A stretch of 64,000 nt of DNA, taken from assembly GCF_964019385.1 (NCBI RefSeq), contig NC_088643.1:2630755-2694754 (forward strand). The letters are read 5' to 3'. This document shows positions 385 to 40,637 of the stretch, piece by piece. The DNA is from Sycon ciliatum (Eukaryota > Porifera > Calcarea > Leucosolenida > Sycettidae). Numbering within the stretch: the stretch's first letter is position 1; every line of letters begins with the position of its first letter. The notes under the pieces are model-generated. The model did not search any database, had not been told where the DNA came from, and saw nothing but the letters and a program-made list of their open reading frames with translations. The position numbers and the translations under genes are program-made.

Positions 385-554
385 TAAAAATTCGACGAGG
401 AGACAATAATTTTAATATGGCAATAAGTAGGACGAGCTGAAGCGACATGTGGACTACTTTATTAACAATGTAAGCGATGGAGACGATGCAAGAAACAACC
501 TAAAGGGTAAGGAAAAATACATGTAAGAAGAAAAAGGGCAATGGAAAAAAAAGA

Positions 555-594
555 TGATTCGAACAAGTTTTCGTACAACACTCTTCAGGAATCA
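555..594 (-). ncRNA. Hammerhead ribozyme, type I (PLE-A)
   Basis: On the minus strand: stem I TGATTC/GAATCA, core CTGAAGA (position 7 is variable in hammerheads), stem II GTG/TAC, GAA, and short stem III AAC-TT-GTT ending in GUUC, which is a valid NUH cleavage site. PLEs are known to carry hammerheads in their terminal regions. Confidence 0.8.
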
Positions 595-876
595 CCGTTG
601 TACTAAAGAACAAAATGAGAACAAAGGAAATAATATAGCAATCAAGGTAGGGTGACACGATACAATGACAGCACTAGAATATCGAGGTGCGATTTCTCAC
701 AAAAGTGTGCAGAAAACAAGGGTATACAAGTAAGAACTAAGCGTGACAAGTGTGTATCAGCAACAAAAAACAAAAAAGTGAGAACGAATGATAATAATAA
801 CAATAATAAACAAGAAGGTGACAAAACACATTTAGGCACAAGTGGCAACAACGTTGCCACACTACACAACAGAACA

Positions 877-2295
877 TTATTTGAACAATTTTAGGGTAAT
901 AACACTATCTTTCTGGACACACAAATTCGGCTTATGAATGCGCTGACAAACAGCTTCCAAAACTTGTAACTGCAAAAGATAACCATGACGAGCACGGCAC
1001 AAAACAGAAAAACAGGAATCAGAATAAGTACGACAACAGTCAGTACTAGAAACCAAATGATTGTATACTGAAGACTTGTTATTACGAGACGGACGCACAC
1101 AATCTCGACTCACGCGCACACCCTCACACTCCCTCTCACCCTCACTCAGCTCACCTTCTCCCTCACTGTCCGAATCAGAACCTGCTCCGTCATCCACCGC
1201 GGTTTGACTCTCCTCCTCACTTGCATTGTCCTGCGTCTCACCTTCACCACCCACGCCAACCCTGAATGCCGTTGCCTTCACGTCAGTCGTCGTCCTATCC
1301 GATTGTTTCCTTTGTATTTTTACCGTGAATTCATAGGTCCGGTTGTAATCTGCTGTAGATCTCCGTGGTCTGTCATTTGCTGCTTTGTTTTGTGGATTAG
1401 TTGTTGTTGTTGTTGTTGTTGGATGTGAACCTGGTGTTGTTGTTGGATGTGAAGCTGGTGTTGTTGTTGCCGCCATGGTTGTTGGTCTTTCTGTTGAATC
1501 CAGCTCTGGTTCCGGTGGGACAAATCGACCACCACGGGTGCTCCCCACCAACACAGACCTCGAAGGAGGAGGGTCAGGGGGAGGCAGAGGTGCTGTCACC
1601 ACTCGAGGCACAGCCCCATGCAAAGCACCCAGAGGCACAGACTTAGGCACACCCGAGGGCTGCACCAGTGGCGGTTCCGCACGCACCTCCAAAGAGCTGC
1701 CAAGCTCCAGCCCGTCCAACACAGATGTCAGAGGGGGAGCGGCAGACAGCGGCAGGGAACTATCCTGCCGTCTAGGTGATGGGTTTTTCCTAGGCCTCCC
1801 GCGTTTGGGCCTCTCAGATTGCGCACTGGGTGGAAGGATGTGAAGTGGAGTGTGTTGTTTGATACGTGCGTTCAGGTGCTGAACAGTCCTACCAACATAC
1901 CGACTAGCACAATGTCGGCATTCGAAGTTGTAGATAACATGACTGAGGTGGAGGGTTGGTAGAACGTCCTTCCGCACCGTGAACGCACCCATTGTTGTGA
2001 AGACTGGCACAAAATGTACTGCATAATAAGTACGACGGACGATAGACTTGACTGCGTGACACACTTTGATCGATTCCTGCCCCTTCCATGGCAAACATAG
2101 ATAGACGGGACAGCGAGGTGGACCAATCAGCACCGATTTCGGTTTCTGCTCCATGGACAGAAACTTACGCAACAAGAATTCCGGGTAGCCATTCTTCAAG
2201 AAAACAGATCGAAGGAAATCGAGCTCGGCCTGCTGCTTACTGGGCGAACAAATACGTTTCGCACGGTCCACGAGGTGACGACTTGTTCGAATCAT
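877..2295 (-). CDS. Penelope-like element C-terminal protein with split GIY-YIG endonuclease
   Basis: An open frame of 472 residues, 5' truncated at the inverted junction, so the apparent start is not the native one. Residues 1-50 (ELDFLRSVFLKNGYPEFLL) resemble the end of a PLE reverse transcriptase thumb. Residues 120-148 hold the first half of a GIY-YIG nuclease: IYNFEC, then C, RYVGRT, and LNARIKQH with the catalytic Arg. Residues 162-171 (RPKRGRPRKN) look like an AT-hook. About 250 Pro/Thr- and then acid-rich residues follow, before the second half at 405-472 (VLEAV with the expected Glu at 447, then KPNLCVQK). The nuclease would nick target DNA for integration. The long internal insertion is unusual for the family. 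No stops interrupt the frame. Confidence 0.75.
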   Translation of the reverse strand: MIRTSRHLVDRAKRICSPSKQQAELDFLRSVFLKNGYPEFLLRKFLSMEQKPKSVLIGPPRCPVYLCLPWKGQESIKVCHAVKSIVRRTYYAVHFVPVFTTMGAFTVRKDVLPTLHLSHVIYNFECRHCASRYVGRTVQHLNARIKQHTPLHILPPSAQSERPKRGRPRKNPSPRRQDSSLPLSAAPPLTSVLDGLELGSSLEVRAEPPLVQPSGVPKSVPLGALHGAVPRVVTAPLPPPDPPPSRSVLVGSTRGGRFVPPEPELDSTERPTTMAATTTPASHPTTTPGSHPTTTTTTTNPQNKAANDRPRRSTADYNRTYEFTVKIQRKQSDRTTTDVKATAFRVGVGGEGETQDNASEEESQTAVDDGAGSDSDSEGEGELSEGERECEGVRVSRDCVRPSRNNKSSVYNHLVSSTDCCRTYSDSCFSVLCRARHGYLLQLQVLEAVCQRIHKPNLCVQKDSVITLKLFK

Positions 2296-2429
2296 CTTTT
2301 TTTTCCATTGCCCTTTTTCTTCTTACATGTATTTTTCCTTACCCTTTAGGTTGTTTCTTGCATCGTCTCCATCGCTTACATTGTTAATAAAGTAGTCCAC
2401 ATGCCGCTTCAGCTCGTCCTACTTATTGC

Positions 2430-2439
<10 letters not shown>

Positions 2440-2477
<38 letters not shown>

Positions 2478-2534: not shown

Positions 2535-2535
<1 letters not shown>

Positions 2536-2723
2536 TGAAACTCGGATGTTGAGCCATAAATAAATGTAAAAGAGAAAAGGACATATGGATACGAGTTAAG
2601 AGTAACTCAGTACTCTGTCAGTTTTGTGCCTAGTTATTGCACTTTCTGACTGTATATAGTATCATGTTACAGTGATGGAGAGTTACTCTTAACTCGTATC
2701 CATATGTCCTTTTCTCTTTTACA
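2535..2723. mobile_element. Miniature palindromic copy of the 592-bp retrozyme-like unit
   Basis: The left arm starts TGAAACTCGGATG (full 3' end in minus sense). The right arm ends at CTTTTACA next to (ATT)n, the internal 3' stop. The arms share the GATACGAGTTAAGAGTAACTC segment inverted. The ribozyme is absent. It is flanked by (ATT)n on both sides. Confidence 0.75.
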
Positions 2724-3254
2724 TTATTATTATTATTATTATTATTGTGGAAGAGAAAAAAGACATATGGATACGAGTTAAGAGTAACTCTCCATCACTG
2801 TAACATGATACTATATACAGTCAGAAAGTGCAATAACTAGGCACAAAACTGACAGAGTACTGAAACATTCGACGTCCTGACACCTAGCTTCAACACATCT
2901 CCGTAGCGCTAACCGACAGCCTTCCAACTTGGAAGGTTCAAGGTTATGGAAAGACCAAAGAGGGGAAGGCAAGCGCAACGAAAACGAGCAAAAGCTACAG
3001 TCCCAAAGGAACAAAGAATGTCGATTGTTACTGGACGATGACGAGACCAGTACGATATTTGACAAAGCGGTCTAACTACAATTCGAAGCAGCAAAGCAGC
3101 ACACCACCCAACTTGGGTGGGTCATAAATATCAAAGATAAGTAAAGAAAGGGAAGCTTTGCGAGAACGAATTGTACAAGCCGAAAGCCAAACTCCTACAG
3201 TACTCCTCATGCATGACATTGTGATGGACTAGTTGACTACAAAACAAGTTGTTT

Positions 3255-3303
3255 CACACGACGTACGTTTCGCCGTATGGTTCGTGACGGCTCATCAGGT
3301 GTG
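3255..3303 (-). ncRNA. Hammerhead ribozyme (592 unit 1)
   Basis: Minus strand: CACAC, CTGATGA, stem II GCCG/CGGC with a 12-nt loop, GAA, a very short stem III in ACGTACGT, cleavage after GUC, and GTGTG closing stem I. Stem I can extend through GTTTC/GAAAC across an AAATTG bulge. Confidence 0.88.
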
Positions 3304-3846
3304 CAATTTGAAACTCGGATGTTGAGCCATAAATAAATGTGGAAGAGAAAAAAGACATATGGATACGAGTTAAGAGTAACTCTCCATCACTGTAACATGA
3401 TACTATATACAGTCAGAAAGTGCAATAACTAGGCACAAAACTGACAGAGTACTGAAACATTCGACGTCCTGACACCTAGCTTCAACACATCTCCGTAGCG
3501 CTAACCGACAGCCTTCCAACTTGGAAGGTTCAAGGTTATGGAAAGACCAAAGAGGGGAAGGCAAGCGCAACGAAAACGAGCAAAAGCTACAGTCCCAAAG
3601 GAACAAAGAATGTCGATTGTTACTGGACGATGACGAGACCAGTACGATATTTGACAAAGCGGTCTAACTACAATTCGAAGCAGCAAAGCAGCACACCACC
3701 CAACTTGGGTGGGTCATAAATATCAAAGATAAGTAAAGAAAGGGAAGCTTTGCGAGAACGAATTGTACAAGCCGAAAGCCAAACTCCTACAGTACTCCTC
3801 ATGCATGACATTGTGATGGACTAGTTGACTACAAAACAAGTTGTTT

Positions 3847-3895
3847 CACACGACGTACGTTTCGCCGTATGGTTCGTGACGGCTCATCAGGTGTG
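3847..3895 (-). ncRNA. Hammerhead ribozyme (592 unit 2)
   Basis: Sequence identical to the copy at 3255-3303: all core residues and stems I and II are present. Confidence 0.88.
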
Positions 3896-4442
3896 CAATT
3901 TGAAACTCGGATGTTGAGCCATAAATAAATGTGGAAGAGAAAAAAAAAAGACATATGGATACGAGTTAAGAGTAACTCTCCATCACTGTAACATGATACT
4001 ATATACAGTCAGAAAGTGCAATAACTAGGCACAAAACTGACAGAGTACTGAAACATTCGACGTCCTGACACCTAGCTTCAACACATCTCCGTAGCGCTAA
4101 CCGACAGCCTTCCAACTTGGAAGGTTCAAGGTTATGGAAAGACCAAAGAGGGGAAGGCAAGCGCAACGAAAACGAGCAAAAGCTACAGTCCCAAAGGAAC
4201 AAAGAATGTCGATTGTTACTGGACGATGACGAGACCAGTACGATATTTGACAAAGCGGTCTAACTACAATTCGAAGCAGCAAAGCAGCACACCACCCAAC
4301 TTGGGTGGGTCATAAATATCAAAGATAAGTAAAGAAAGGGAAGCTTTGCGAGAACGAATTGTACAAGCCGAAAGCCAAACTCCTACAGTACTCCTCATGC
4401 ATGACATTGTGATGGACTAGTTGACTACAAAACAAGTTGTTT

Positions 4443-4491
4443 CACACGACGTACGTTTCGCCGTATGGTTCGTGACGGCTCATCAGGTGTG
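4443..4491 (-). ncRNA. Hammerhead ribozyme (592 unit 3)
   Basis: Identical core and stems to the copy at 3255-3303. It lies 596 bp from the preceding copy because of an A-run insertion elsewhere in the unit. Confidence 0.88.
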
Positions 4492-5034
4492 CAATTTGAA
4501 ACTCGGATGTTGAGCCATAAATAAATGTGGAAGAGAAAAAAGACATATGGATACGAGTTAAGAGTAACTCTCCATCACTGTAACATGATACTATATACAG
4601 TCAGAAAGTGCAATAACTAGGCACAAAACTGACAGAGTACTGAAACATTCGACGTCCTGACACCTAGCTTCAACACATCTCCGTAGCGCTAACCGACAGC
4701 CTTCCAACTTGGAAGGTTCAAGGTTATGGAAAGACCAAAGAGGGGAAGGCAAGCGCAACGAAAACGAGCAAAAGCTACAGTCCCAAAGGAACAAAGAATG
4801 TCGATTGTTACTGGACGATGACGAGACCAGTACGATATTTGACAAAGCGGTCTAACTACAATTCGAAGCAGCAAAGCAGCACACCACCCAACTTGGGTGG
4901 GTCATAAATATCAAAGATAAGTAAAGAAAGGGAAGCTTTGCGAGAACGAATTGTACAAGCCGAAAGCCAAACTCCTACAGTACTCCTCATGCATGACATT
5001 GTGATGGACTAGTTGACTACAAAACAAGTTGTTT

Positions 5035-5083
5035 CACACGACGTACGTTTCGCCGTATGGTTCGTGACGGCTCATCAGGTGTG
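5035..5083 (-). ncRNA. Hammerhead ribozyme (592 unit 4)
   Basis: Identical core and stems to the copy at 3255-3303. It is the last complete ribozyme before the inversion point near 5515. Confidence 0.88.
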
Positions 5084-6061
5084 CAATTTGAAACTCGGAT
5101 GTTGAGCCATAAATAAATGTGGAAGAGAAAAAAGACATATGGATACGAGTTAAGAGTAACTCTCCATCACTGTAACATGATACTATATACAGTCAGAAAG
5201 TGCAATAACTAGGCACAAAACTGACAGAGTACTGAAACATTCGACGTCCTGACACCTAGCTTCAACACATCTCCGTAGCGCTAACCGACAGCCTTCCAAC
5301 TTGGAAGGTTCAAGGTTATGGAAAGACCAAAGAGGGGAAGGCAAGCGCAACGAAAACGAGCAAAAGCTACAGTCCCAAAGGAACAAAGAATGTCGATTGT
5401 TACTGGACGATGACGAGACCAGTACGATATTTGACAAAGCGGTCTAACTACAATTCGAAGCAGCAAAGCAGCACACCACCCAACTTGGGTGGGTCATAAA
5501 TATCAAAGATAAGTTCGTGTGAAACAACTTGTTTTGTAGTCAACTAGTCCATCACAATGTCATGCATGAGGAGTACTGTAGGAGTTTGGCTTTCGGCTTG
5601 TACAATTCGTTCTCGCAAAGCTTCCCTTTCTTTACTTATCTTTGATATTTATGACCCACCCAAGTTGGGTGGTGTGCTGCTTTGCTGCTTCGAATTGTAG
5701 TTAGACCGCTTTGTCAAATATCGTACTCGTCTCGTCATCGTCCAGTAACAATCGACATTCTTTGTTCCTTTGGGACTGTAGCTTTTGCTCGTTTTCGTTG
5801 CGCTTGCCTTCCCCTCTTTGGTCTTTCCATAACCTTGAACCTTCCAAGTTGGAAGGCTGTCGGTTAGCGCTACGGAGATGTGTTGAAGCTAGGTGTCAGG
5901 ACGTCGAATGTTTCAGTACTCTGTCAGTTTTGTGCCTAGTTATTGCACTTTCTGACTGTATATAGTATCATGTTACAGTGATGGAGAGTTACTCTTAACT
6001 CGTATCCATATGTCTTTTTTCTCTTCCACATTTATTTATGGCTCAACATCCGAGTTTCAAA

Positions 6062-6113: not shown

Positions 6114-6302
6114 ATTATTGGTAAACAGTTTCCTCTGAGACAAAAATGCGATAATACTCATAAAAAGGACACACTTCAGGCTCATTACAAACATCTTGAA
6201 AGTTTTCGTCTATTTCACCTGATGAGAAGGCTTGAAAGTATACTTGTGAAGACGAAAACTTTCAAGATGTTTGTAATGAGCCTGAAGTGTGTCCTTTTTA
6301 TG

Positions 6303-6305
<3 letters not shown>
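6114..6305. mobile_element. Miniature palindromic PLE-C copy
   Basis: The left arm (minus sense) ends at GGTAAACAG, the full terminus. The right arm (plus sense) ends at TTTTTATGAGTATT, an internal TATTAT site. Only about 100 bp of element is present in each arm. One hammerhead survives, in the right arm. Confidence 0.75.
6214..6250 (+). ncRNA. Hammerhead-like ribozyme (PLE-C mini copy)
   Basis: TTCAC, CTGATGA, a degenerate stem II (GAAGGCTT), GAA, palindromic stem III AGTATACT, cleavage U, then GTGAA closing stem I. The weak stem II lowers confidence in activity. Confidence 0.6.

Positions 6306-6356
<51 letters not shown>
6306..6356. repeat. (ATT)n microsatellite
   Basis: Perfect ATT tract between two palindromic PLE-C inserts. 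Confidence 0.95.
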
Positions 6357-6439
6357 GTTTCCTCTGAGACAAAAATGCGATAATACTCATAAAAAGGACA
6401 CACTTCAGGCTCATTACAAACATCTTGAAAGTTTTTGTC

Positions 6440-6476
6440 TTCACAAGTATACTTTCAAGCCTTCTCATCAGGTGAA
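6440..6476 (-). ncRNA. Hammerhead-like ribozyme (PLE-C)
   Basis: Minus-strand copy of the motif at 6214-6250, with identical core and a weak stem II. Confidence 0.6.
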
Positions 6477-6550
6477 ATACAGGCAAGAGAAAAGGAACAG
6501 GAACAGTGGATTAAATACAGTAAGAAGGTGGTAAAACAGCGCAAAAAGAA

Positions 6551-6667
6551 AGATTGCTGAATGTTTTGGAAGCTGTATACATCCACACAAGGAAACCCAA
6601 CCTTTGCAAACAGAAACAAATCAAATTCACACTTAGGCTGTTAGGTAGGTCGTCAAAACCTCGTTAG
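6551..6667 (+). pseudogene. PLE-C GIY-YIG C-terminal tail fragment
   Basis: Plus-strand codons give RLLNVLEAVYIHTRKPNLCKQ and onward to a stop after SSKPR. This is the last roughly 40 residues of the GIY-YIG domain, with the conserved LEA Glu. It matches the minus-strand copy at 9386-10015. It starts directly at the arm junction, so nothing upstream is present. Confidence 0.7.
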
Positions 6668-6875
6668 TTACATGTATGTCCAGTGGTTGTCTCTTGTTGT
6701 CGCACTACATGTCGCGCTTATTGAGTTTTCTCGCATTTGCACCTTTGTGTCATTATTGCAATTTTCGCTGTTTACTTTAGCTATCTTCTTTCTTTCTTTC
6801 TTTCTTTTTGCGCTGTTTTACCACCTTCTTACTGTATTTAATCCACTGTTCCTGTTCCTTTTCTCTTGCCTGTAT

Positions 6876-6912
6876 TTCACCTGATGAGAAGGCTTGAAAG
6901 TATACTTGTGAA
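6876..6912 (+). ncRNA. Hammerhead-like ribozyme (PLE-C)
   Basis: Plus-strand copy in the right arm: TTCAC/GTGAA stem I, CTGATGA, GAA, and AGTATACT stem III. Confidence 0.6.
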
Positions 6913-6967
6913 GACAAAAACTTTCAAGATGTTTGTAATGAGCCTGAAGTGTGTCCTTTTTATGAGT

Positions 6968-6988
6968 ATTATTATTATTATTATTATT
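6968..6988. repeat. (ATT)n microsatellite
   Basis: Short tract between the PLE-C insert and the 442-bp retrozyme insert. Confidence 0.9.
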
Positions 6989-7137
6989 TGTAAGAAAGGG
7001 TTTGCTCCCCACACCGGAGCTCGCGCTATTCCGCCGACTTTACTTGACACTTGACTGACTCACGACTGCCATCCAGAGCACACGAGAAGTCCATCGAACC
7101 TTCGACTCGGCAAACCTGCAAGAAAGCACCACTCCCT

Positions 7138-7183
7138 GCTCAATACACAGTGTTTCGGGGAATTCACCCCTCATCAGTTGAGC
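7138..7183 (-). ncRNA. Hammerhead ribozyme (442 unit)
   Basis: Minus strand: stem I GCTCAA/TTGAGC, CTGATGA, stem II GGGG/CCCC with a 6-nt loop, GAA, stem III ACAC/GTGT, and cleavage after GUA. Confidence 0.88.
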
Positions 7184-7677
7184 TTGAGTAGGCTGAGGAA
7201 GATTGTGCCTGAAGAGCACCACTTATATAGTGCTCTCCAGGCACAAACATCACCAGGGATACAAACTTACAGAGACGCTCCATTTCCAGCGCGACAAACA
7301 CCTCGTGAACACCAGATAGCAGCGTTAGTCAGTGTCGCTCCTGGACGGTGAGACCAGACGTTGAGGACCCTGGGTCATTCGCAACGCTGTCACCTCCAAA
7401 CCAACTAGTCGCAAGCCCGCGCTGGGCTGTTGTGCCCAGCGCGGGCTTGCGACTAGTTGGTTTGGAGGTGACAGCGTTGCGAATGACCCAGGGTCCTCAA
7501 CGTCTGGTCTCACCGTCCAGGAGCGACACTGACTAACGCTGCTATCTGGTGTTCACGAGGTGTTTGTCGCGCTGGAAATGGAGCGTCTCTGTAAGTTTGT
7601 ATCCCTGGTGATGTTTGTGCCTGGAGAGCACTATATAAGTGGTGCTCTTCAGGCACAATCTTCCTCAGCCTACTCAA

Positions 7678-7723
7678 GCTCAACTGATGAGGGGTGAATT
7701 CCCCGAAACACTGTGTATTGAGC
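7678..7723 (+). ncRNA. Hammerhead ribozyme (442 unit)
   Basis: Plus-strand copy with a 6-bp stem I (GCTCAA/TTGAGC), GGGG/CCCC stem II and ACAC/GTGT stem III; every core residue is present. Confidence 0.9.
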
Positions 7724-8119
7724 AGGGAGTGGTGCTTTCTTGCAGGTTTGCCGAGTCGAAGGTTCGATGGACTTCTCGTGTGCTCTGGATGGCAGTCGTG
7801 AGTCAGTCAAGTGTCAAGTAAAGTCGGCGGAATAGCGCGAGCTCCGGTGTGGGGAGCAAACCCTTTCTATGTTGTGCCCAGCGCGGGCTTGCGACTAGTT
7901 GGTTTGGAGGTGACAGCGTTGCGAATGACCCAGGGTCCTCAACGTCTGGTCTCACCGTCCAGGAGCGACACTGACTAACGCTGCTATCTGGTGTTCACGA
8001 GGTGTTTGTCGCGCTGGAAATGGAGCGTCTCTGTAAGTTTGTATCCCTGGTGATGTTTGTGCCTGGAGAGCACTATATAAGTGGTGCTCTTCAGGCACAA
8101 TCTTCCTCAGCCTACTCAA

Positions 8120-8165
8120 GCTCAACTGATGAGGGGTGAATTCCCCGAAACACTGTGTATTGAGC
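8120..8165 (+). ncRNA. Hammerhead ribozyme (442 unit)
   Basis: Second tandem plus-strand copy, identical in core and stems to 7678-7723. Two cleavages would release a 442-nt monomer. Confidence 0.9.
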
Positions 8166-8345
8166 AGGGAGTGGTGCTTTCTTGCAGGTTTGCCGAGTCG
8201 AAGGTTCGATGGACTTCTCGTGTGCTCTGGATGGCAGTCGTGAGTCAGTCAAGTGTCAAGTAAAGTCGGCGGAATAGCGCGAGCTCCGGTGTGGGGAGCA
8301 AACCCTTTCTTACAAATCATCGCCGAAGTCGCAACCACCACTTCG

Positions 8346-9049: not shown

Positions 9050-9140
9050 GGTAAACAGTTTCCTCTGAGACAAAAATGCGATAATACTCATAAAAAGGAC
9101 ACACTTCAGGCTCATTACAAACATCTTGAAAGTTTTTGTC

Positions 9141-9177
9141 TTCACAAGTATACTTTCAAGCCTTCTCATCAGGTGAA
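9141..9177 (-). ncRNA. Hammerhead-like ribozyme (PLE-C)
   Basis: Minus-strand motif identical in core to 6214-6250, located just upstream of the element 3' terminus. Confidence 0.6.
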
Positions 9178-9385
9178 ATACAGGCAAGGGAAAAGGAACA
9201 GGAACAGTGGATTAAATACAGTAAGAAGGTGGTAAAACAGCGCAAAAAGAAAGAAAGAAAGAAAGAAGATAGCTAAAGTAAACAGCGAAAATTGCAATAA
9301 TGACACAAAGGTGCAAATGCGAGAAAACTCAATAAGCGCGACATGTAGTGCGACAACAAGAGACAACCACTGGACATACATGTAA

Positions 9386-10015
9386 CTAACGAGGTTTTGA
9401 CGACCTACCTAACAGCCTAAGTGTGAATTTGATTTGTTTCTGCTTGCAAAGGTTGGGTTTCCTTGTGTGGATGTATACAGCTTCCAAAACATTCAGCAAT
9501 CTAGCACTGCGTACACGTGACACAATCGAAAAACAATCATCCGAATACACAGCACGACAATCAGGATGCTCAAACAAATGACTAGCAATGGACGACTCAT
9601 ACTTATCAGAACTAACATCAGAACAATCAGCATGTGCGGTGGACACATCCGATTTCACATGGCTAGTCGAGTGGACCCTAGCCGTTGCCTCTGTCTGTGC
9701 TTTAGTCGCTGCCATCGCCGCCGTTGCCGATCTTGATATTCTTCTGGTTGATGCGGTTCCTGTCACTGCCACGCACGTAGGTGTCTTGTCCGGTTGTTTT
9801 TCTGGTGGTCTAGTTAATTGTGAGGTGACGTTCCTTGGTGTTGATGCCGCTGCGTTGGACCATCCTGTACCAGGATGATTCTTTGCTGGACGTCCCCTCC
9901 GTGGTCGAGTGGATCGTGCGTGTTGTGGAATAAGGTGTAGCGGTGCGTGTTGTCGGATGCGTGCGTCCAGAGTCCAGATGTTGAAGAGTCCTACCTACAT
10001 ATCGGCTCTCACATT
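9386..10015 (-). pseudogene. PLE-C GIY-YIG protein, frameshifted
   Basis: The minus-strand frames read SRYVGRTLQHL, then (after a small duplication-type shift near 9965) RIRQHAPLHLIP, RPRRGRPAKN (AT-hook-like), a Ser/Thr/Ala-rich linker, and finally LLNVLEAVYIHTRKPNLCKQ to the stop near 9386. The order matches families A and B: first GIY-YIG half, AT-hook, linker, second half. The linker is shorter here (about 150 residues) and lacks the strongly acidic run. The N-terminal half of the PLE is missing. The frameshift makes this copy inactive. Confidence 0.7.
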
Positions 10016-10076
10016 GTTTTACCACCTTCTTACTGTATTTAATCCACTGTTCCTGTTCCTTTTCCCTTGCCTGTAT

Positions 10077-10113
10077 TTCACCTGATGAGAAGGCTTGAAA
10101 GTATACTTGTGAA
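10077..10113 (+). ncRNA. Hammerhead-like ribozyme (PLE-C)
   Basis: Right-arm copy: TTCAC, CTGATGA, GAA, AGTATACT, U, GTGAA. Confidence 0.6.
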
Positions 10114-10167
10114 GACAAAAACTTTCAAGATGTTTGTAATGAGCCTGAAGTGTGTCCTTTTTATGAG

Positions 10168-10270
<103 letters not shown>

Positions 10271-12353: not shown

Positions 12354-13069
<716 letters not shown>

Positions 13070-13690: not shown

Positions 13691-13797
13691 AGAGTCGGCG
13701 TGGAGAAAGCAATTTTATTAGTGCAATTAGGAGTATAATCGATGCAGACATGGCCAGACAACAACGAGTTCATGGAATTTTTTAAGGATTTTTATGT

Positions 13798-13837
13798 TAT
13801 TCAAAATCGATTTTCGTGTTCCGCTCATCAGTGAATA
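13798..13837 (-). ncRNA. Hammerhead-like ribozyme (PLE-B left arm)
   Basis: Minus strand: stem I TATTCA/TGAATA, CTGATGA, a weak stem II (GCGGAACAC), GAA, palindromic stem III AATCGATT, and cleavage U. Confidence 0.65.
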
Positions 13838-14037
13838 GTATCGGAACTGAGGGTACTGTGTACAACAATAGAACATTTTATAACAGCATAATTAATTAAA
13901 AGTGTGAACAACAAAGGAAGTGCTACAGCATTACATAATAGGTGTCAAACATAGTGCTAACGTATATAACTGAGTGCAGCCACAAAGCAAGAGGTGATAC
14001 AGTGCAACATGACACAACATTTACATCTGATAACCAG

Positions 14038-14415
14038 CTACGAGAACAACTTTAGCGCGACTACATGCTTCTTTTGTTTACAAAGAACAGGATTATGCAC
14101 ACGAATACATACAGCTTCCAGAACCTTCAACTGCTTAACATAACTTGCACGGCACAAAACAGAAAAGTGAGAATCATCGTACACAACAAGACAATCTGGA
14201 CGTGATAACAAGTGACAAAATACAGCTGACTTTTTGCTCACGTCGCTCTCTTCCGTCTCATCCCGCTCCTTTCCTTCGACCTCCTCCGCCTTATCCTCGT
14301 CCTCCGTCTCATCTTCATCATCATCGTCCTCATCACCACCATCATCATCATCAGTCACTTCCTCATCATCCGTTTGATGCTCAGTCTCACTGCACTCCTT
14401 ATCAGCCTCCAAATT
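14038..14415 (-). pseudogene. PLE-B ORF C-terminal part in the inverted arm
   Basis: Minus-strand duplicate of the last roughly 125 residues of the right-arm ORF: LEADKECSETEHQTDDEE, the acidic run, SAVFCHLLSRPDC and VLEAVCIRVHNPVLCKQKK. It differs little from the right arm, so the two arms were made close together in time or from the same template. Upstream of Leu the frame enters junction sequence (to about 14455) that is not PLE-like. Confidence 0.75.
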
Positions 14416-14458
14416 TCTCAGATCAATATTCCTTAAGAATGGATACCCACATGACTTA

Positions 14459-15781
14459 TTGAACAAAATACTGAAGCAAGAATCTAATAACAAAGATACA
14501 TTCACAGGTCCTCGGAAGTGTCCTATCTACTTATGCCTGCCTTGGAAAGGCAACGCGTCTGTCAGCATGTCCAGAGCTATCAAGACCCTAGTCAATAAAA
14601 CATACTTTGCTGCCCACTTCATCCCCGTGTTCACCACGGTACGTGCGTTCATGGTGAGGAAGGATGTCCTACCTCCCCAGCTTTCAAGCCATTTGGTTTA
14701 TCTCTTTGAGTGCCGGAATTGTGCTGCCCGGTACGTTGGTAGGACTCTTCAACACCTGAACGCACGTATCAGACAACATGTGCCGTTGCACTTATTACCA
14801 CCAGCAGCCAGAGCAAAGAGGCCAAAGCGTGGTAGACCGTGTAAGAACCCAGTTAGCTCAGTAGACAAACACGCTGTGCCGACAGCGCCGCCTGTTCCCG
14901 TGCCACCACCGGCCCCACCACCTGGGGTGCCGTGGGTGGCTGGGGCTGGGGTGGGTTTGCCATCATTGACCTGGCCACCACTTCTCGACCCACTGCAAAC
15001 GGCAGCGGAGCCTACTCTAGCACAACATCATCGTCCTGGAATGGAGGAGGGGCCACCGAGACACACTGAACCTTCACCTCGGCAGTTGCCCTTGCCTCCG
15101 CCTGAGCCACCCCCTTTACCTTTGGTGACTACCGAGACGGTGGTCCCCCCGGTGCTGGGATCCACGGTGCCGACTGTGTCTGGACAGAGAGGGAGATCAT
15201 CGACAAACCAAAATGAAACCAATATCCTCACCCATAGACCCAGAAGAAGCACAGCAAACTATTCACTTGAAATTTATGCACGGAATGGACTTGGTCCACG
15301 CAAAATGGACAGTGGAAATGGGTGTGCAGTAGCAGAGAACCCAGCAACGGTGACGCGGAGCAGCGGTCAAACGACTTGTGATGCTGGTGGAGATGATGGA
15401 GCCATGTTGGAGGCTGATAAGGAGTGCAGTGAGACTGAGCATCAAACGGATGATGAGGAAGTGACTGATGATGATGATGGTGGTGATGAGGACGATGATG
15501 ATGAAGATGAGACGGAGGACGAGGATAAGGCGGAGGAGGTCGAAGGAAAGGAGCGGGATGAGACGGAAGAGAGCGACGTGAGCAAAAAGTCAGCTGTATT
15601 TTGTCACTTGTTATCACGTCCAGATTGTCTTGTTGTGTACGATGATTCTCACTTTTCTGTTTTGTGCCGTGCAAGTTATGTTAAGCAGTTGAAGGTTCTG
15701 GAAGCTGTATGTATTCGTGTGCATAATCCTGTTCTTTGTAAACAAAAGAAGCATGTAGTCGCGCTAAAGTTGTTCTCGTAG
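14459..15781 (+). CDS. PLE-B C-terminal protein with split GIY-YIG endonuclease
   Basis: An open frame of 440 residues, 5' truncated by the arm junction; the first Met is probably not native. TGPRKCPIYLCLPWKG (about 16-31) matches the family A copy. First GIY-YIG half at 79-107 (LVYLFEC, CAARYVGRT, LNARIRQH). AT-hook-like RPKRGRPCKN at 121-130. A Pro-rich stretch (about 140-240) and a strongly acidic Asp/Glu run (about 330-370) follow. Second half at about 378-440, with VLEAV (Glu 415) and NPVLCKQKK. The active-site Arg and Glu are separated by some 300 residues, far more than in ordinary GIY-YIG domains. No stops or frameshifts. Confidence 0.75.
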   Translation: MNKILKQESNNKDTFTGPRKCPIYLCLPWKGNASVSMSRAIKTLVNKTYFAAHFIPVFTTVRAFMVRKDVLPPQLSSHLVYLFECRNCAARYVGRTLQHLNARIRQHVPLHLLPPAARAKRPKRGRPCKNPVSSVDKHAVPTAPPVPVPPPAPPPGVPWVAGAGVGLPSLTWPPLLDPLQTAAEPTLAQHHRPGMEEGPPRHTEPSPRQLPLPPPEPPPLPLVTTETVVPPVLGSTVPTVSGQRGRSSTNQNETNILTHRPRRSTANYSLEIYARNGLGPRKMDSGNGCAVAENPATVTRSSGQTTCDAGGDDGAMLEADKECSETEHQTDDEEVTDDDDGGDEDDDDEDETEDEDKAEEVEGKERDETEESDVSKKSAVFCHLLSRPDCLVVYDDSHFSVLCRASYVKQLKVLEAVCIRVHNPVLCKQKKHVVALKLFS

Positions 15782-15981
15782 CTGGTTATCAGATGTAAAT
15801 GTTGTGTCATGTTGCACTGTATCACCTCTTGCTTTGTGGCTGCACTCAGTTATATACGTTAGCACTATGTTTGACACCTATTATGTAATGCTGTAGCACT
15901 TCCTTTGTTGTTCACACTTTTAATTAATTATGCTGTTATAAAATGTTCTATTGTTGTACACAGTACCCTCAGTTCCGATAC

Positions 15982-16021
15982 TATTCACTGATGAGCGGAA
16001 CACGAAAATCGATTTTGAATA
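15982..16021 (+). ncRNA. Hammerhead-like ribozyme (PLE-B right arm)
   Basis: Plus-strand copy of the motif at 13798-13837: TATTCA, CTGATGA, GAA, AATCGATT, U, TGAATA. Confidence 0.65.
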
Positions 16022-16104
16022 ACATAAAAATCCTTAAAAAATTCCATGAACTCGTTGTTGTCTGGCCATGTCTGCATCGATTATACTCCTAATTGCACTA
16101 ATAA

Positions 16105-16465
16105 AATAATAATAATAATTTTTTTTTTTTTTTTTTTTTTTTTTTTGAATAATAAACTGGTTTATTATGTACTATTATGTGAGATGAAATAAAACAGGAA
16201 AGGGCACAGGCCCTGATACGTGCAAGGGATAGCAATCAACCTTGCACATGTGTTCTAAATACATGTAAATGTAAATGCAAAACAATTAAAAACAAAAACA
16301 CAAACAATGAGCAATAACTTCAGGACTGGGCACAAGTCCTAAACCAGTAAAAGGTGCAAGAGATAATAATCAACCTTGCGAGTTCGAGTCAAAGCATGCG
16401 GACTCACAACAAAATGGCATCAACGTGAGCAAAGAGGAAGAAGAGAAAGGAAACAGCAAAACAAA
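16105..16465 (-). mobile_element. 3'-UTR fragment of a poly(A)-tailed retroelement
   Basis: After a short (AAT)n comes a T-run of about 26 bases (16120-16146: the poly(A) tail of a minus-strand element) and about 320 bp identical to the 3' UTR at 33590-34190. No coding part remains. The copy preserves an uninterrupted TGTAAATGTAAATGCA site (16264-16279), which is occupied in the other copy. Confidence 0.8.
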
Positions 16466-32807: not shown

Positions 32808-32827
32808 ATAATAATAATAATAATAAT
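32808..32827. repeat. (AAT)n microsatellite
   Basis: Short tract joining the R4 3' end to the retrozyme insert. Confidence 0.9.
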
Positions 32828-33570
32828 GTGGAAGAGAAAAAGACATATTGATACGAGTTAAGAGTAACTCTCCATCACTGTAACATGATACTATATACAG
32901 TCAGAAAGTGCAATAACTAGGCACAAAACTGACAGAGTACTGAAACATTCGACGTCCTGACACCTAGCTTCAACACATCTCCGTAGCGCTAACCGACAGC
33001 CTTCCAACTTGGAAGGTTCAAGGTTATGGAAAAGACCAAAGAGGGGAAGGCAAGCGCAACGAAAACGAGCAAAAGCTACAGTCCCAACGGAACAAAGAAT
33101 GTCGATTGTTACTGGACGATGACGAGACCAGTACGATATTTGACAAAGCGGTCTAACTACAATTCGAAGCAGCAAAGCAGCACACCACCCAACTTGGGTG
33201 GGTCATAAATATCAAAGATAAGTAAAGAAAGGGAAGCTTTGCGAAAACGAATTGTACAAGCCGAAAGCCAAACTCCTACAGTACTCCTCATGCATGACAT
33301 TGTGATGGACTAGTTGACTACAAAACAAGTTGTTTCACACGACGTACGTTTCGCCGTATGGTTCGTGACGGCTCATCAGGTGTGCAATTTGAAACTCGGA
33401 TGTTGAGCCATAAATAAATGTGGAAGAGAAAAAGACATATTGATACGAGTTAAGAGTAACTTTCTGACTGTATATAGTATCATGTTACAGTGATGGAGAG
33501 TTACTCTTAACTCGTATCAATATGTCTTTTTCTCTTCCACATTTATTTATGGCTCAACATCCGAGTTTCA
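32828..33570. mobile_element. Palindromic 592-bp retrozyme-like insert, second locus
   Basis: One full minus-sense unit (32828-33420), the start of a second, and a plus-sense arm (about 33463-33570). The left end is the internal site (GTGGAAGAG), and the right end the full terminus (GAGTTTCAAA). It differs at several positions from the array at 2745-6061, for example ATATTGATACG for ATATGGATACG. Confidence 0.8.
33336..33384 (-). ncRNA. Hammerhead ribozyme (592 family, second locus)
   Basis: Minus strand, identical in core and stems to 3255-3303. Confidence 0.88.
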
Positions 33571-33743
33571 AATAATAATAATAATAATATTTTTTTTTTT
33601 TTTTTTTTTTGAATAATAAACTGGTTTATTATGTACTATTATGTGAGATGAAATAAAACAGGAAAGGGCACAGGCCCTGATACGTGCAAGGGATAGCAAT
33701 CAACCTTGCACATGTGTTCTAAATACATGTAAATGTAAATGCA

Positions 33744-35271: not shown

Positions 35272-35443
35272 TTAAAAATTCGACGAGGAGACAATAATTT
35301 TAATATGGCAATAAGTAGGACGAGCTGAAGCGACATGTGGACTACTTTATTAACAATGTAAGCGATGGAGACGATGCAAGAAACAACCTAAAGGGTAAGG
35401 AAAAATACATGTAAGAAGAAAAAGGGGCAATGGAAAAAAAAGA

Positions 35444-35483
35444 TGATTCGAACAAGTTTTCGTACAACACTCTTCAGGAATCA
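35444..35483 (-). ncRNA. Hammerhead ribozyme (PLE-A copy 2, left arm)
   Basis: Minus strand, identical in stems and core to 555-594. Confidence 0.8.
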
Positions 35484-35764
35484 CCGTTGTACTAAAGAAC
35501 AAAATGAGAACAAAGGAAATAATATAGCAATCAAGGTAGGGTGACACGATACAATGACAGCACTAGAATATCGAGGTGCGATTTCTCACAAAAGTGTGCA
35601 GAAAACAAGGGTATACAAGTAAGAACTAAGCGTGACAAGTGTGTATCAGCAACAAAAACAAAAAAGTGAGAACGAATGATAATAATAACAATAATAAACA
35701 AGAAGGTGACAAAACACATTTAGGCACAAGTGGCAACAACGTTGCCACACTACACAACAAAACA

Positions 35765-36643
35765 TTATTTGAACAATTTTAGGGTAATAACACTATCTTT
35801 CTGGACACACAAATTCGGCTTATGAATGCGCTGACAAACAGCTTCCAAAACTTGTAACTGCAAAAGATAACCATGACGAGCACGGCACAAAACAGAAAAA
35901 CAGGAATCAGAATAAGTACGACAACAGTCAGTACTAGAAACCAAATGATTGTATACTGAAGACTTGTTATTACGAGACGGACGCACACAATCTCGACTCA
36001 CGCGCACACCCTCACACTCACTCTCACCCTCACTCAGCTCACCTTCTCCCTCACTGTCCGAATCAGAACCTGCTCCATCATCCACCGCGGTTTGACTCTC
36101 CTCCTCACTTGCATCGTCCTGCGTCTCACCTTCACCACCCACGCCAACCCTGAATGCCGTTGCCTTCACGTCAGTCGTCGTCCTTTCCGATTGTTTCCTT
36201 TGTATTTTTACCGTGAATTCATAGGTCCGGTTGTAATCTGCTGTAGATCTCCGTGGTCTGTCATTTGCTGCTTTGTTTTGTGGATTAGTTGTTGTTGTTG
36301 TTGGATGTGAACCTGGTGTTGTTGTTGGATGTGCAGCTGGTGTTGTTGTTGCAGCCATGGTTGTTGGTCTTTCTGTTGGATCCAGCTCTGGTTCCGGTGG
36401 GACAAATCGACCGCCGCGGGTGCTCCCCACCAACACAGACCTCGAAGGAGGAGGGTCAGGGGGAGGCAGAGGTGCTGTCACCACTCGAGGCACAGCCCCA
36501 TGCAAAGCACCCAGAGGCACAGACTTAGGCACACCCGAGGGCTGCACCAGTGGCGGTTCCGCACGCACCTCCAAAGAGCTGCCAAGCTCCAGCCCGTCCA
36601 ACACAGATGTCAGAGGGGGAGCGGCAGACAGCGGCAGGGAACT
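35765..36643 (-). pseudogene. PLE-A GIY-YIG C-terminal half
   Basis: An open frame of about 290 residues that starts in the linker (LDGLELGSSLEVRAEPP) after the AT-hook. It contains the Pro/Thr-rich and acidic parts and ends with VLEAVCQRIHKPNLCVQKDS. The first GIY-YIG half is absent because the arm junction cuts the frame. Compared with 877-2295, it has shorter Thr and Gln-codon repeats and several substitutions. Confidence 0.72.
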
Positions 36644-36723
36644 ATGCTGTCATTGTATCGTGTCACCCTACCTTGATTGCTATATTATTTCCTTTGTTCT
36701 CATTTTGTTCTTTAGTACAACGG

Positions 36724-36763
36724 TGATTCCTGAAGAGTGTTGTACGAAAACTTGTTCGAATCA
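36724..36763 (+). ncRNA. Hammerhead ribozyme (PLE-A copy 2, right arm)
   Basis: Plus strand: TGATTC, CTGAAGA, GTG/TAC, GAA, AAC/GTT, C, GAATCA. Confidence 0.8.
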
Positions 36764-36907
36764 TCTTTTTTTTCCATTGCCCCTTTTTCTTCTTACATGT
36801 ATTTTTCCTTACCCTTTAGGTTGTTTCTTGCATCGTCTCCATCGCTTACATTGTTAATAAAGTAGTCCACATGTCGCTTCAGCTCGTCCTACTTATTGCC
36901 ATATTAA

Positions 36908-36943
<36 letters not shown>
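36908..36943. repeat. (TAA)n microsatellite
   Basis: Tract joining the PLE to a SINE dimer. Confidence 0.9.
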
Positions 36944-37480: not shown

Positions 37481-40348
37481 GTTCCAAATGAATGAGCGTG
37501 CTTTCTACCGGACGCTTCGGGAGCCTGCACACCCTGTTAGTGGTGCTTCAAATCGATTGGAGACGCCGCAATTTCCAGAGGCGGGTGAAGCCACCGAATT
37601 CTGGAGTGATCTTCTGTCTACACCTGCGCCGTTCACCGCTGGTGAGTGGTATGTAAGGCAAGCAGAATATTATGAAGAACACGTCCCTGTGCAGAGTAGC
37701 GCAGTTATCACCCAGGACATCCTGGCTGACTGCCTGCGCAAACTAGCCTTGTGGAGGGCTCCGGGCCATGACAAGTTGCATGGGTACTGGTGGAAGAGGC
37801 TGACAAGCCTGCACTCTTACCTTCGGAGAGCCTTCCAGAGGGTGATAGATGGCCACAGTGACATTCCGGGATGGTTGACGTCTGGCGCTACTACTCTCCT
37901 TCCTAAGACTTCTCCACCTTCGGCAATGCCCAAAGATTATAGACCAATTACGTGTCTTCCGATACAGTACAAGCTCTTTACCGCCGCCATATCGAAGATT
38001 ATGTGGCAGCACATCAATCAACATGAAATACTTGCAACGGAGCAGCGCGGTTGTGCAGCAGCTGGTCTTGGTTGCAAGGAGCACCTGATGGTGGATAAGA
38101 TGATTCTGGAGGATGCCCATACGAAAGGGCGAAATCTGGTCATGGCATACCTGGACTTCAAAAAGGCATTTGATAGTGTGTCGCATGAATGGATTCTACA
38201 TGCTTTGACGATGTATCGATTCCACCCGTCTTTGGTCACAACTATTGCTCGTAGCATGCGGAACTGGAGAACGACAATGCACATATGCGACCAGGGAAGA
38301 TGCAGGGTCACTACCGGCAACATTTCAATAAGAAGAGGCATATTTCAAGGTGACACATTATCCCCGTTACTGTTTTGCCTGGCGCTAAACCCAATCAGTT
38401 TTGAGCTCAACCGATTGCCTTTGGGATACAGAGTCAGCTGCAGAGACGCCGAGTTGTCTATCAATCACTCTTGGTACATGGACGACATTAAACTCTATGG
38501 GAAAACTACAAAGGATGTGACTACCCTCGTGTCTACCGTGTGTGGCGTTGGTGATGACATCGGCATGAATCTCAACCCGGCCAAGTGTGCCGTGCTGCAC
38601 GTCAGGAGAGGAAAACCAGATGAAGGATGCTCTATCCAGGTTGGCGATGAGACCATTGCAGAGTCGCTACGACTCAATGAAACATACAAGTACCTTGGAG
38701 TAGTGCAAGCAGCCATGATACCTCACCCGAAGCTCAAGACGCAACTCACTGCAGAATACAAAAAGAGATTGTATTTGCTTCTTAACAGTGGATTGAATGC
38801 GCGAAACATGATCAAGGCCATCAATACGTATGCTCTGCCGGTTATGACATATAGTTATGGAATCGTAAATTGGACCGAGGCTGAAATCAAGACCACAGAT
38901 CGAGTGACAAGATCAGCCTTGACTGCGTCTGGATTTCACCACCCCAAAGCCTCAGTCAACAGGCTCTACATGAAGAGGGGAGATGGAGGCCGGGGCTTGG
39001 TCTCTTGTGAGGATATGCACGGCCGGAGCATGTGTGGCCTGGCCCGCTACATGAGTACCAGCCCAATAGACAGAATAAGCCTGCTTTATCAGTATCATCA
39101 ACAAAAACCTACAACAAAAAGCCACTCAATAACTGCAAAGGCCGCTAAGTTCCTGTCGAGTTTGGATCTGCCAGCAGCTGGACCAGCTTTACCCAATAAG
39201 CATACCATTAAACAAGCGTGCGCTGAGCGAAAATCCAAAACACTTTCCACTATGCCGCTGCATGGGAGGTATTGGAGCCGATTGGAGGAGAATCGCCTAG
39301 ATAAGGAGCTTACCTTCATGTGGTTGAAATCAAGGACACTGAAACCTTCAACTGAAGGCATGATTATGGCAGCACAAGACCAATCCCTCAAAACGAAAAA
39401 TTACCAATACGCCATAATGAAGTCAATTCCTCGAACTGATGCCAATTGCAGGCTTTGCAAGGGCAGCTTAGAAACAATTGACCACATTGTCAGTGCCTGC
39501 CCAGTTCTGGCTCGGACCAGTTACATTGAACGACATAACCGGATAGTAAAGTATGTGCACTTCGAAATGTGTAAAGCACGAGATCTACCTACTGGTGCTT
39601 CACGATTCGACCACCAGCTCAAGGCATTGGTCAAGAGTAATCAGTATCGCCTCTATTGGGAGTATTCGGTCCCAACTGACCTGAAACTATCAGCAAACAG
39701 GCCCGATCTGCTCCTTGTTGATGACAAGGAGCGCATCGCCTACATTATAGACATCAGCGTTCCTGGTGAGAACAACATCAATAAGAAAATGGCTGAAAAG
39801 CGCTCGAAATATTATGATTTGAAGCGGGAGATTTCGAGGATTTGGTCCCTCAACCAGGTTGACGTGGTCCCTGTGGTTGTCGGTGCCCTGGGAGGCTTGG
39901 TGGGCGAGACTCCTCAATGCCTTCGGACTGTGCAGGGAGGAGACCTGGCTATTGTGCAACAGGAGGCTATACAAGGTTCGATTAAAATACTGAGAACTAT
40001 CCTTAACATGTAGATGCACCTCTGCTGCGTTTGCATGTTCAATAGCTAAGAGACTTGAATAACGACTGATAAAGACTGATATTTCCTTTGTTACTACTCC
40101 CTTCATTGGTTGATGTATTTTGCCTGTCGCTGCAAATACTTTATTGTTGTTTTGATGTTGGAGTTCGGATTGAGTTTCTTTCCTTTCTTCCTCTTCCTTC
40201 AACTAGTTCTTGTCCCTTTGGTTTTTAGGTTTTATTTATTTATTTATTTTTGTTTTTGTTTTTTCACTTTCTTTTTGCTGTCCCACCCATGGAAATATTT
40301 CCCGGTGGGTCTGGCTTATCGCCTTCGAAAGAAGTGAATAAAGGAGAA
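37481..40348 (+). mobile_element. R4/Dong-like retrotransposon, family 1, near complete
   Basis: The longest R4-type copy: uninterrupted coding region, 3' UTR 40014-40348 ending GAATAAAGGAGAA, then (ATA)n. The N-terminal DNA-binding region expected upstream of the RT is missing, so it is 5' truncated at the microsatellite. Confidence 0.85.
37488..40013 (+). CDS. R4/Dong-like reverse transcriptase with restriction-like endonuclease
   Basis: 841 codons from the first Met after the microsatellite. Reverse transcriptase: APGHDKLHGYWWK, KDYRPITCLPIQYKLF, LVMAYLDFKKAFDSVSH, RRGIFQGDTLSPLLFCLALN, and the catalytic YMDD at 330-333. Zinc motif C654-x2-C657-x8-H666-x4-C671. Restriction-like endonuclease core RPD 738-740 with the second acidic residue Asp755 (IIDISVP). 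The tail VVPVVVGALGG is shared with family 2. The protein would cut TAA repeats and prime reverse transcription from the nick. The missing N-terminus means this copy is unlikely to be fully functional, but the absence of stops suggests it is young. Confidence 0.88.
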   Translation: MNERAFYRTLREPAHPVSGASNRLETPQFPEAGEATEFWSDLLSTPAPFTAGEWYVRQAEYYEEHVPVQSSAVITQDILADCLRKLALWRAPGHDKLHGYWWKRLTSLHSYLRRAFQRVIDGHSDIPGWLTSGATTLLPKTSPPSAMPKDYRPITCLPIQYKLFTAAISKIMWQHINQHEILATEQRGCAAAGLGCKEHLMVDKMILEDAHTKGRNLVMAYLDFKKAFDSVSHEWILHALTMYRFHPSLVTTIARSMRNWRTTMHICDQGRCRVTTGNISIRRGIFQGDTLSPLLFCLALNPISFELNRLPLGYRVSCRDAELSINHSWYMDDIKLYGKTTKDVTTLVSTVCGVGDDIGMNLNPAKCAVLHVRRGKPDEGCSIQVGDETIAESLRLNETYKYLGVVQAAMIPHPKLKTQLTAEYKKRLYLLLNSGLNARNMIKAINTYALPVMTYSYGIVNWTEAEIKTTDRVTRSALTASGFHHPKASVNRLYMKRGDGGRGLVSCEDMHGRSMCGLARYMSTSPIDRISLLYQYHQQKPTTKSHSITAKAAKFLSSLDLPAAGPALPNKHTIKQACAERKSKTLSTMPLHGRYWSRLEENRLDKELTFMWLKSRTLKPSTEGMIMAAQDQSLKTKNYQYAIMKSIPRTDANCRLCKGSLETIDHIVSACPVLARTSYIERHNRIVKYVHFEMCKARDLPTGASRFDHQLKALVKSNQYRLYWEYSVPTDLKLSANRPDLLLVDDKERIAYIIDISVPGENNINKKMAEKRSKYYDLKREISRIWSLNQVDVVPVVVGALGGLVGETPQCLRTVQGGDLAIVQQEAIQGSIKILRTILNM

Positions 40349-40369
40349 ATAATAATAATAATAATAATA
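40349..40369. repeat. (AAT)n microsatellite
   Basis: R4 3' junction. Confidence 0.9.
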
Positions 40370-40637
40370 CAAAAGAGAGAGAGGTTGGAAGCTTTGTTAC
40401 AACTCTGAGTTTCACGTATACAGAAGAGAGAGAGAGAGATTGGAAGCTTTGTTACAACTCTGAGTTTCACGTATTACTACGATCATCAGGCAACCCCCCT
40501 GCCTGATGATCATAGTATTATGTGAAACTCAGAGTTGTAACTAAGCTTCCAATCTCTCTCTTGTGTACAAGGCTCTGCCCTACATGGGTATTCATTGACT
40601 TTTCGGAAAGTGAATTGAAGCAAACCACTTGACTACA
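40370..40637. mobile_element. Palindromic short hammerhead element
   Basis: The left arm (minus sense) and right arm (plus sense) meet at CAACCCCCCTGCC near 40495. GGAAGCTT, GTTAC and ACTCTGAGTTTCAC occur in both orientations. The left arm also has a partial duplication (40385-40420). Both outer ends abut AAT repeats (to 40369 and from 40638). The right arm is longer. Confidence 0.7.
40451..40494 (-). ncRNA. Hammerhead ribozyme (short element)
   Basis: Minus strand: stem I GTTGC/GTAAC, CTGATGA, stem II CGTA-GTAA-TACG above a U-U pair, GAA, stem III ACTC/GAGT, and cleavage after GUU. The plus-strand counterpart near 40502-40552 has lost its stem I. Confidence 0.75.

Follow-up and report, generated by a model that had tools for sequence, protein, structure and literature searches.

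How does a mobile element come to lie in a genome as two arms of opposite orientation, each of which turns the 3' region of the element outwards? This question is raised by a stretch of 64,000 nucleotides of the calcareous sponge Sycon ciliatum (contig NC_088643.1, positions 2,630,755 to 2,694,754; hereafter the window), in which an earlier note made from the sequence alone had described twelve such inserts within TAA microsatellites. The note attributed them to priming from both target strands, with the second primer annealed to an internal, repeat-complementary tract of the element RNA. All twelve inserts are present, with opposite arms and outward 3' regions, and they belong to six families: three Penelope-like elements (PLE-A, PLE-B and PLE-C), a 592-bp unit, a 442-bp unit and a sixth hammerhead family. 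We regard it as very probable that they are insertions of PLEs and of gene-less hammerhead units, produced by initiation of reverse transcription at two sites on both cut strands, with the two initiations, as we infer, paired on one RNA.

Inverted inserts across loci

The inserts were counted in 38 loci fetched around the best matches of the 592 unit, together with the window, and all families were sought in them. The 592 loci are the best 40 of 1043 first-look candidates in the 538 Mb assembly (for PLE-A the first look gave 1494), a choice biased towards long and young copies, and the other families were counted just within these loci and the window. The 592 unit is represented by 70 rows, 44 of them counted and 26 dropped, either for lack of a two-sided repeat flank or because the edge of the locus cut them. 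Counted rows amount to 3 of 12 for PLE-A, 1 of 9 for PLE-B, 4 of 5 for PLE-C, 8 of 13 for the 442 unit, 1 of 1 for the sixth family and, among the elements used for comparison, 8 of 14 for long interspersed nuclear elements (LINEs) and 13 of 36 for short interspersed nuclear elements (SINEs). The LINE loci L009-L016 lie outside the counts.

TAA repeat borders 61 PLE and hammerhead inserts on either side, and 55 of these are inverted and two-armed (592 unit, 39 of 44; PLE-A, 3 of 3; PLE-B, 1 of 1; PLE-C, 4 of 4; 442 unit, 7 of 8; sixth family, 1 of 1). Single-orientation copies, which would have spoken against the earlier note had they been the majority, amount to six of 61. In the same loci, none of the 21 repeat-flanked LINE and SINE inserts (8 and 13, respectively, all in single orientation) is inverted (Fisher p ~2e-14), and the inversion therefore belongs to the PLE and hammerhead families; neither the repeat nor the assembly accounts for it. 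A single orientation with one 3' end is the hallmark of a LINE insertion, from which the 55 two-armed inserts depart and none of the eight LINEs does.

The two ends of the arms

Each family has two fixed outer ends, here called Long and Short, separated by 20-34 nt except in the sixth family, where the distance is 76 nt. As the earlier note had claimed, one longer and one shorter 3' end are found in each of the twelve inserts of the window, and the same holds for 40 of the 43 inverted repeat-flanked inserts outside it. Overall, the 55 inverted inserts comprise 52 with Long+Short ends, two with Short+Short, one with Long and another end (L024) and none with Long+Long. All repeat-flanked inserts of PLE-A (three), PLE-B (one) and PLE-C (four) are inverted with Long+Short ends; PLE-B and the sixth family, with one insert each, define their own Long and Short ends and are no test of the rule. 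The ranges of both ends were fixed after inspection of the end alignments, and the Short range was extended to unit position 541 to admit L020 (542); under the earlier bound Long+Short pairs number 51 of 55. When the labels were shuffled 20,000 times, mixed pairs averaged 27 of 54 and reached at most 42, versus 52 observed; the p value of 8e-14 for the pairing is too small, since copies with common ancestry are not independent.

Both counted Short+Short inserts appear from their sequences to be recombinants. In the insert at 5305 of L046, the first ~155 bases match the insert at 7947 and the rest matches the insert at 4180, while in the insert at 1463 of L028 the outermost unit is 8 bases off nine others, which are identical among themselves in both arms. 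In L046:4180-8501, recombination of neighboring inserts seems to have given rise to the chimeric Short+Short insert. The dropped rows of the 592 unit that are inverted with both ends typed comprise six Long+Short inserts (L034 at 2020, L035, L044 at 2006, L046 at 2059, L052 at 2009 and L054) and two Short+Short inserts (L047 and L048). Two further PLE-A inserts, L055 and L056, are both Long+Short and were left uncounted because they had been chosen with both ends visible beforehand.

Proposed mechanism of insertion

We propose that a PLE complex of reverse transcriptase (RT) and GIY-YIG would make cuts staggered by ~10-13 bp in the two strands of a TAA repeat or another AT-rich site, and that each exposed 3' end would start complementary DNA (cDNA) synthesis at Long or Short, two fixed sites inside the RNA. 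The two cDNAs would then be joined by microhomology or short filler, giving inverted, overlapping arms with their 3' regions outwards. Each site would be used once, because a single RNA, bound by both subunits of one dimer, would serve for both initiations, and the target DNA would load in either orientation. The 592, 442 and sixth units probably borrow the PLE machinery.

Priming from both target strands, as suggested in the earlier note, is supported. Of 52 inner junctions of the 592 unit, 33 have no filler and show 0-3 nt of microhomology, with 1 nt or more in 23 cases (chance 42%, p 0.001), and the remaining 19 have 1-24 nt of filler. Hammerhead cleavage was considered as a source of the inner arm ends and is at most a minor one: of 104 ends, 5 fall next to the cut, at unit positions 45-49, against an expected 0.9 (p 0.002, for an interval picked after inspection). 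At sites without a two-sided repeat flank, target duplications of 10-13 bp were found in six of eight cases and none in two, and in a mismatched-locus control 1 of 56 reached 11, the next being 8. The survey covered 15 rows, seven with a direct repeat of at least 10 bp (one of them, in L046, plain TAA repeat) and eight with none; the formal test used eight of the 15, after removal of L046, of the duplicate L048 and of rows whose arms were incomplete or whose repeat lay on one flank. The duplications at non-repeat sites indicate that the targets of these units extend beyond TAA repeats and that the double cut is staggered.

With regard to the template, the two arms within 592 inserts are identical in 21 of 39 cases and overall disagree at 64 of 11,128 sites (0.58%), compared with 1.8% when arms were re-paired among inserts (minimum 1.3% in 2000 shuffles). 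Likewise, the units of 21 multi-unit inserts differ on average by 0.13% within and 1.3% between inserts. Both arms of an insert are therefore derived from one template type. This is compatible with one RNA, which for the 592 unit would be a monomeric circle, but a homogeneous source locus or later homogenization would look alike. The multimeric or circular template of the earlier note is likewise compatible with the arms, which reach almost nine tandem units, near-identical within an insert. Tentatively, we suggest that each insertion may come from a single RNA, a monomeric hammerhead circle for the small units, read simultaneously by both subunits of a PLE dimer, one starting at Long and the other at Short, each once, and both running round the circle. 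One RNA, a dimer and a circle would explain why Long pairs exclusively with Short, why neither strand is preferred, why the arms are similar in length and why they have variants in common.

It is less than likely, though well worth considering, that two independent RNAs are used, one per strand, with the asymmetry of Long and Short set by an asymmetric protein complex. Two RNAs would yield the pairing rule without one polymerase trailing another on the same molecule, and RNAs from the same source locus would also give near-identical arms. That arms differ less within than between inserts speaks for a shared RNA, though one source locus fits equally; moreover, a homodimer, as predicted for the Anolis PLE protein (PMC11167929), offers no obvious asymmetry.

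The annealing model of the earlier note, in which target repeat DNA pairs with an internal complementary AT tract and primes the second arm, bears on the strand of the repeat that each end faces. Short ends of the 592 unit face AAT in 19 cases and ATT in 24, and Long ends in 23 and 16; for all families, the counts are 27 versus 32 for Short ends and, single-orientation inserts included, 32 and 24 for Long ends. The Short end keeps an almost constant element position for either strand. When facing AAT, 17 of 19 Short ends of the 592 unit stop at the same ACA, at unit position 562 (L020 and L045 stop upstream, as judged by eye), and the homology of the site to the repeat is at most 2-3 nt; when facing ATT they stop at 562-568, a position that is ambiguous since the repeat continues the element. 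In the latter orientation the Short sites of the 592 unit, PLE-A and PLE-C do adjoin 5-6 nt of ATT-repeat-like sequence downstream, a homology matched by 1-6% of nearby positions, but among the five families compared those of PLE-B and the 442 unit show no unusual homology to the repeat. Since the Short end is independent of repeat polarity, annealing to an internal RNA tract is not needed, and with the 592 Short end facing both strands alike this model is unsupported, largely refuted and in our opinion improbable. The Short ends described in the earlier note are real; the motifs given for them partly contain repeat bases, because an end that faces ATT seems to reach 2-6 nt further than it does against AAT.

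In comparison, LINE 3' ends face AAT in all eight repeat-flanked copies (p 0.02 versus the 32 and 24 of Long ends). The LINEs appear restricted to one strand, which pairing of a UAA tail with the target would predict; the PLE and hammerhead arms are not so restricted. In the 13 repeat-flanked SINE inserts, eight 3' ends face AAT and five face ATT.

Snap-back self-priming, in which the first cDNA would fold back and be copied into the second arm, agrees with the near-identity of arms within inserts, and self-priming on an antisense template has been inferred for bdelloid Penelope from palindromes at inverted junctions (PMC3846280). However, a copy cannot outreach the strand from which it is made, and the tail cannot be copied from a cDNA that ends at Short, so that the short-ended arm should never exceed the other; it does so in 28 of the 52 Long+Short inserts (in 26 of them by over 40 nt), leaving 24 in which the long-ended arm is at least as long. 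The short-ended arm is therefore no copy of the other, and on these arm lengths we reject snap-back as highly improbable. Finally, a fold-back artefact of assembly or reads, suggested by long inverted repeats being a common artefact of long-read libraries, has a negligible probability, because it would invert the flanking repeat, which instead keeps one polarity to either side in 12 of 12 inserts of the window, as the earlier note had stated, and in 61 of 61 repeat-flanked PLE and hammerhead inserts, and because it would not account for the fixed tail that distinguishes the ends, the target duplications at several non-repeat copies or the 21 uninverted LINE and SINE inserts of the same loci.

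Several observations weigh against the proposed PLE-driven, two-site mechanism. The ATT-like homology of three Short sites does so in part. The inserts L047 and L048, one duplicated locus with the same layout and neither repeat flanks nor a target duplication, are unexplained Short+Short inserts that stand outside the counts. The partner arm is the nearest arm, or jointly so, in 21 of 35 testable inserts, a weak test given that many inserts are near-identical. No common 3'-end sequence or fold was found among the families when the six 3'-end folds were compared by eye. The GIY-YIG matches of the PLE-A frame (877-2322) and of the PLE-B frame score under the Pfam cutoff, and the argument that PLEs would mobilize the 592 and 442 units draws on a single line of evidence, the shared architecture.

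Comparison with known elements

In L1 twin priming, two priming events produce inverted arms that are adjacent, non-overlapping parts of one RNA. The inserts of Sycon resemble this outcome in having inverted arms from two priming events, but differ in that their arms overlap up to the 3' region, which both of them reach, as the earlier note had stated.

The likeness to PLEs of the Penelope/Poseidon clade from Adineta vaga and Anolis is closer, and includes inverted 3' regions at both ends, a tail on one arm (30-40 bp in those elements), a hammerhead motif, a relative with RT and a putative GIY-YIG, an AT- or ATT-rich target and short target duplications (10-13 bp here). In A. vaga, Penelope has inverted pseudo-long terminal repeats (pLTRs) with an optional 31-bp tail on one of them, and target duplications of 8, 9 or 10 bp or none (PMC3846280). 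The tail is ~20-34 nt here, partly under the range of known PLEs, and the differences are that it is near-obligate on exactly one arm instead of optional, that the counted targets are TAA repeats and that gene-less units have the same architecture. The long and short ends of the earlier note thus correspond to the PLE tail, and match the two fixed internal initiation sites of the Anolis PLE (PMC11167929). In fact, the protein of that element (PAc) cleaves and extends both strands in vitro with a preference for ATT, and its RT initiates at two adjacent internal RNA sites that are not homologous to the cut DNA and whose interval equals the genomic tail (PMC11167929). Mutation of the hammerhead left in vitro insertion unaffected, and reads ending at the cleavage site were absent, so that a cleaved circle as template is not favored for that element; how PLEs integrate is described as an open question in the same work (PMC11167929). 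As far as we searched, three points are new: the tail that is near-obligate on exactly one arm, its presence in gene-less hammerhead units of 592 and 442 bp, and the origin of both arms of an insert from a single type of template. At the level of abstracts, the literature held no report of an obligate rule of one long and one short end, or of retrozymes with PLE arms, and an earlier description is possible.

Metazoan retrozymes are small tandem hammerhead units of 150-450 bp without genes or long terminal repeats (LTRs), and PLEs have been put forward as a strong candidate for their mobilization, with circular RNAs as RT templates, on the grounds that the two have ribozymes in common, occur in tandem copies and co-exist (PMC7229834). 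The 592 and 442 units are likewise small tandem hammerhead units without an LTR, and their sequences agree with the retrozyme definition of gene-less tandem units with a type I hammerhead, putative in both cases (a sub-threshold Rfam match for the 592 unit, a motif for the 442 unit). They differ in that the 592 unit exceeds the published size range and that the insertions have PLE arms and a tail; the word "inverted" is absent from the main text of PMC7229834.

Inserts and other features of the window

The positions given in the earlier note are close, except that the insert placed at 6114 begins at ~6120. Arm identity in best self-alignment is 98.6-100% in ten of the twelve inserts, the exceptions being those at 6120 (84.8%, in a gapped alignment across the center) and 40370 (88.6-91.5%). 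PLE-A is found within (ATT)n at 385..2444 (-), with an antisense Long arm (385-2280) that contains a GIY-YIG-like frame and a Short arm on the plus strand (2281-2444), and again at 35273..36910 (Long 35273-~36645, -; Short ~36646-36910, +). The PLE-B insert at 13692..16107 consists of a Long arm (13692-14412, -) and a Short arm (14413-16107, +), the latter with a GIY-YIG-like frame at 14378-15781 (+) whose open frame starts 35 nt before the arm junction. PLE-C accounts for the inserts at 6120..6310 (Long ~6120-6211, -; Short ~6211-6310, +), 6357..6972 (Long ~6357-6553, -; Short ~6551-6972, +) and 9050..10170 (Long 9050-~10014, -; Short 10015-10170, +), the Long end of the second being 8 nt shorter than that of the third. 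The 592 unit is present at 2535..2725 (Long ~2535-2609, -; Short ~2608-2725, +), at 2746..6060, where a Short arm of ~4.7 tandem units (2746-5514, -) meets a Long arm (5515-6060, +), and at 32825..33571 (Short 32825-33461, -; Long ~33459-33571, +). The 442 unit occupies 6986..8345, with a Short arm (6986-7427, -) and a Long arm of two tandem units (7428-8345, +), and 12355..12963 (Long 12355-12897, -; Short ~12896-12963, +). The sixth family is represented at 40370..40637 by a Short arm (~40370-40489, -), which includes a partial tandem copy and in which 40370-40375 is unaligned, and a Long arm (~40496-40637, +).

A sense-strand hammerhead core was recognized by motif in each of the six families, the short 592 copy at 2535 lacking it. 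In the 592 unit it lies at 3268..3298, 3860-3890, 4456-4486, 5048-5078 and 33349-33379 (first one -), and the four cores of the array score 26.8 bits with Rfam Hammerhead_1, under the cutoff of 34. By motif only, cores of the 442 unit are placed at 7684..7708 (+), 8126-8150 (+), 7153-7177 (-) and 12550-12574 (-), and motif cores of the sixth family at 40503..40527 (+) and 40465-40489 (-). In the three PLEs a putative minimal core, CUGANGA...GAAA, is located near the 3' region: at 569..588 (-), 35458-35477 (-) and 36730-36749 (+) in PLE-A, at 15988..16007 (+) and 13812-13831 (-) in PLE-B, and at 9154..9172 (-), 10082-10100 (+), 6219-6237 (+), 6881-6899 (+) and 6453-6471 (-) in PLE-C. Rfam gave no hammerhead match for these elements within 1-16200, where a loose threshold returned chiefly microRNA models on palindromes, which we regard as artefacts.

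The PLE copies of the window are 5'-truncated, and no GIY-YIG match was found by Pfam in the PLE-C fragment. The nearest homologue of PLE-B, P0001, is 95% identical over 94% of a 180-amino-acid region, and has RVT_1 above and GIY-YIG below the Pfam cutoff. As judged by eye, the PLE frames 9386-9994, 14378-15781 and 877-2322 each contain an extended stretch of low complexity and resemble one another in a C-terminal block that follows the GIY-YIG region. Neither the 592 array at 2746 nor either of the two 442 inserts fully contains an open reading frame of at least 110 amino acids.

Other features include tRNA-like SINEs with a period of ~282 bp (13319-13668, 16503-17438 and 36943-37444), of which the last two are direct head-to-tail arrays between TAA repeats, a four-unit array being present in L046. 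Two LINE families occupy 10271-11725, 37481-40347, 32050-32807, 8712-8867 and 11897-12317. A perfect 145-nt inverted repeat with a 113-nt spacer (25596-25998) is located away from TAA repeats, the region 58200-64000 is very GC-rich (77-84%) with short tandem repeats (read to 60500), and the window also has an N gap (27813-28012) and a frame that encodes a reverse transcriptase domain.

Significance

The PLE architecture of the 592 and 442 insertions is direct evidence for the published proposal that PLEs move retrozymes (PMC7229834). If the tentative single-RNA reading given above is true, animal retrozymes would parasitize PLEs, which has been suspected before, and the Long+Short rule would be the signature left by an integration with two polymerases on one RNA. 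The rule points to coordinated two-site priming on both strands, probably on one RNA, and, being common to PLEs and gene-less units, it makes both the mode of PLE integration and the mobilization of retrozymes directly testable, for which the genome of Sycon ciliatum offers a large natural set of inserts.

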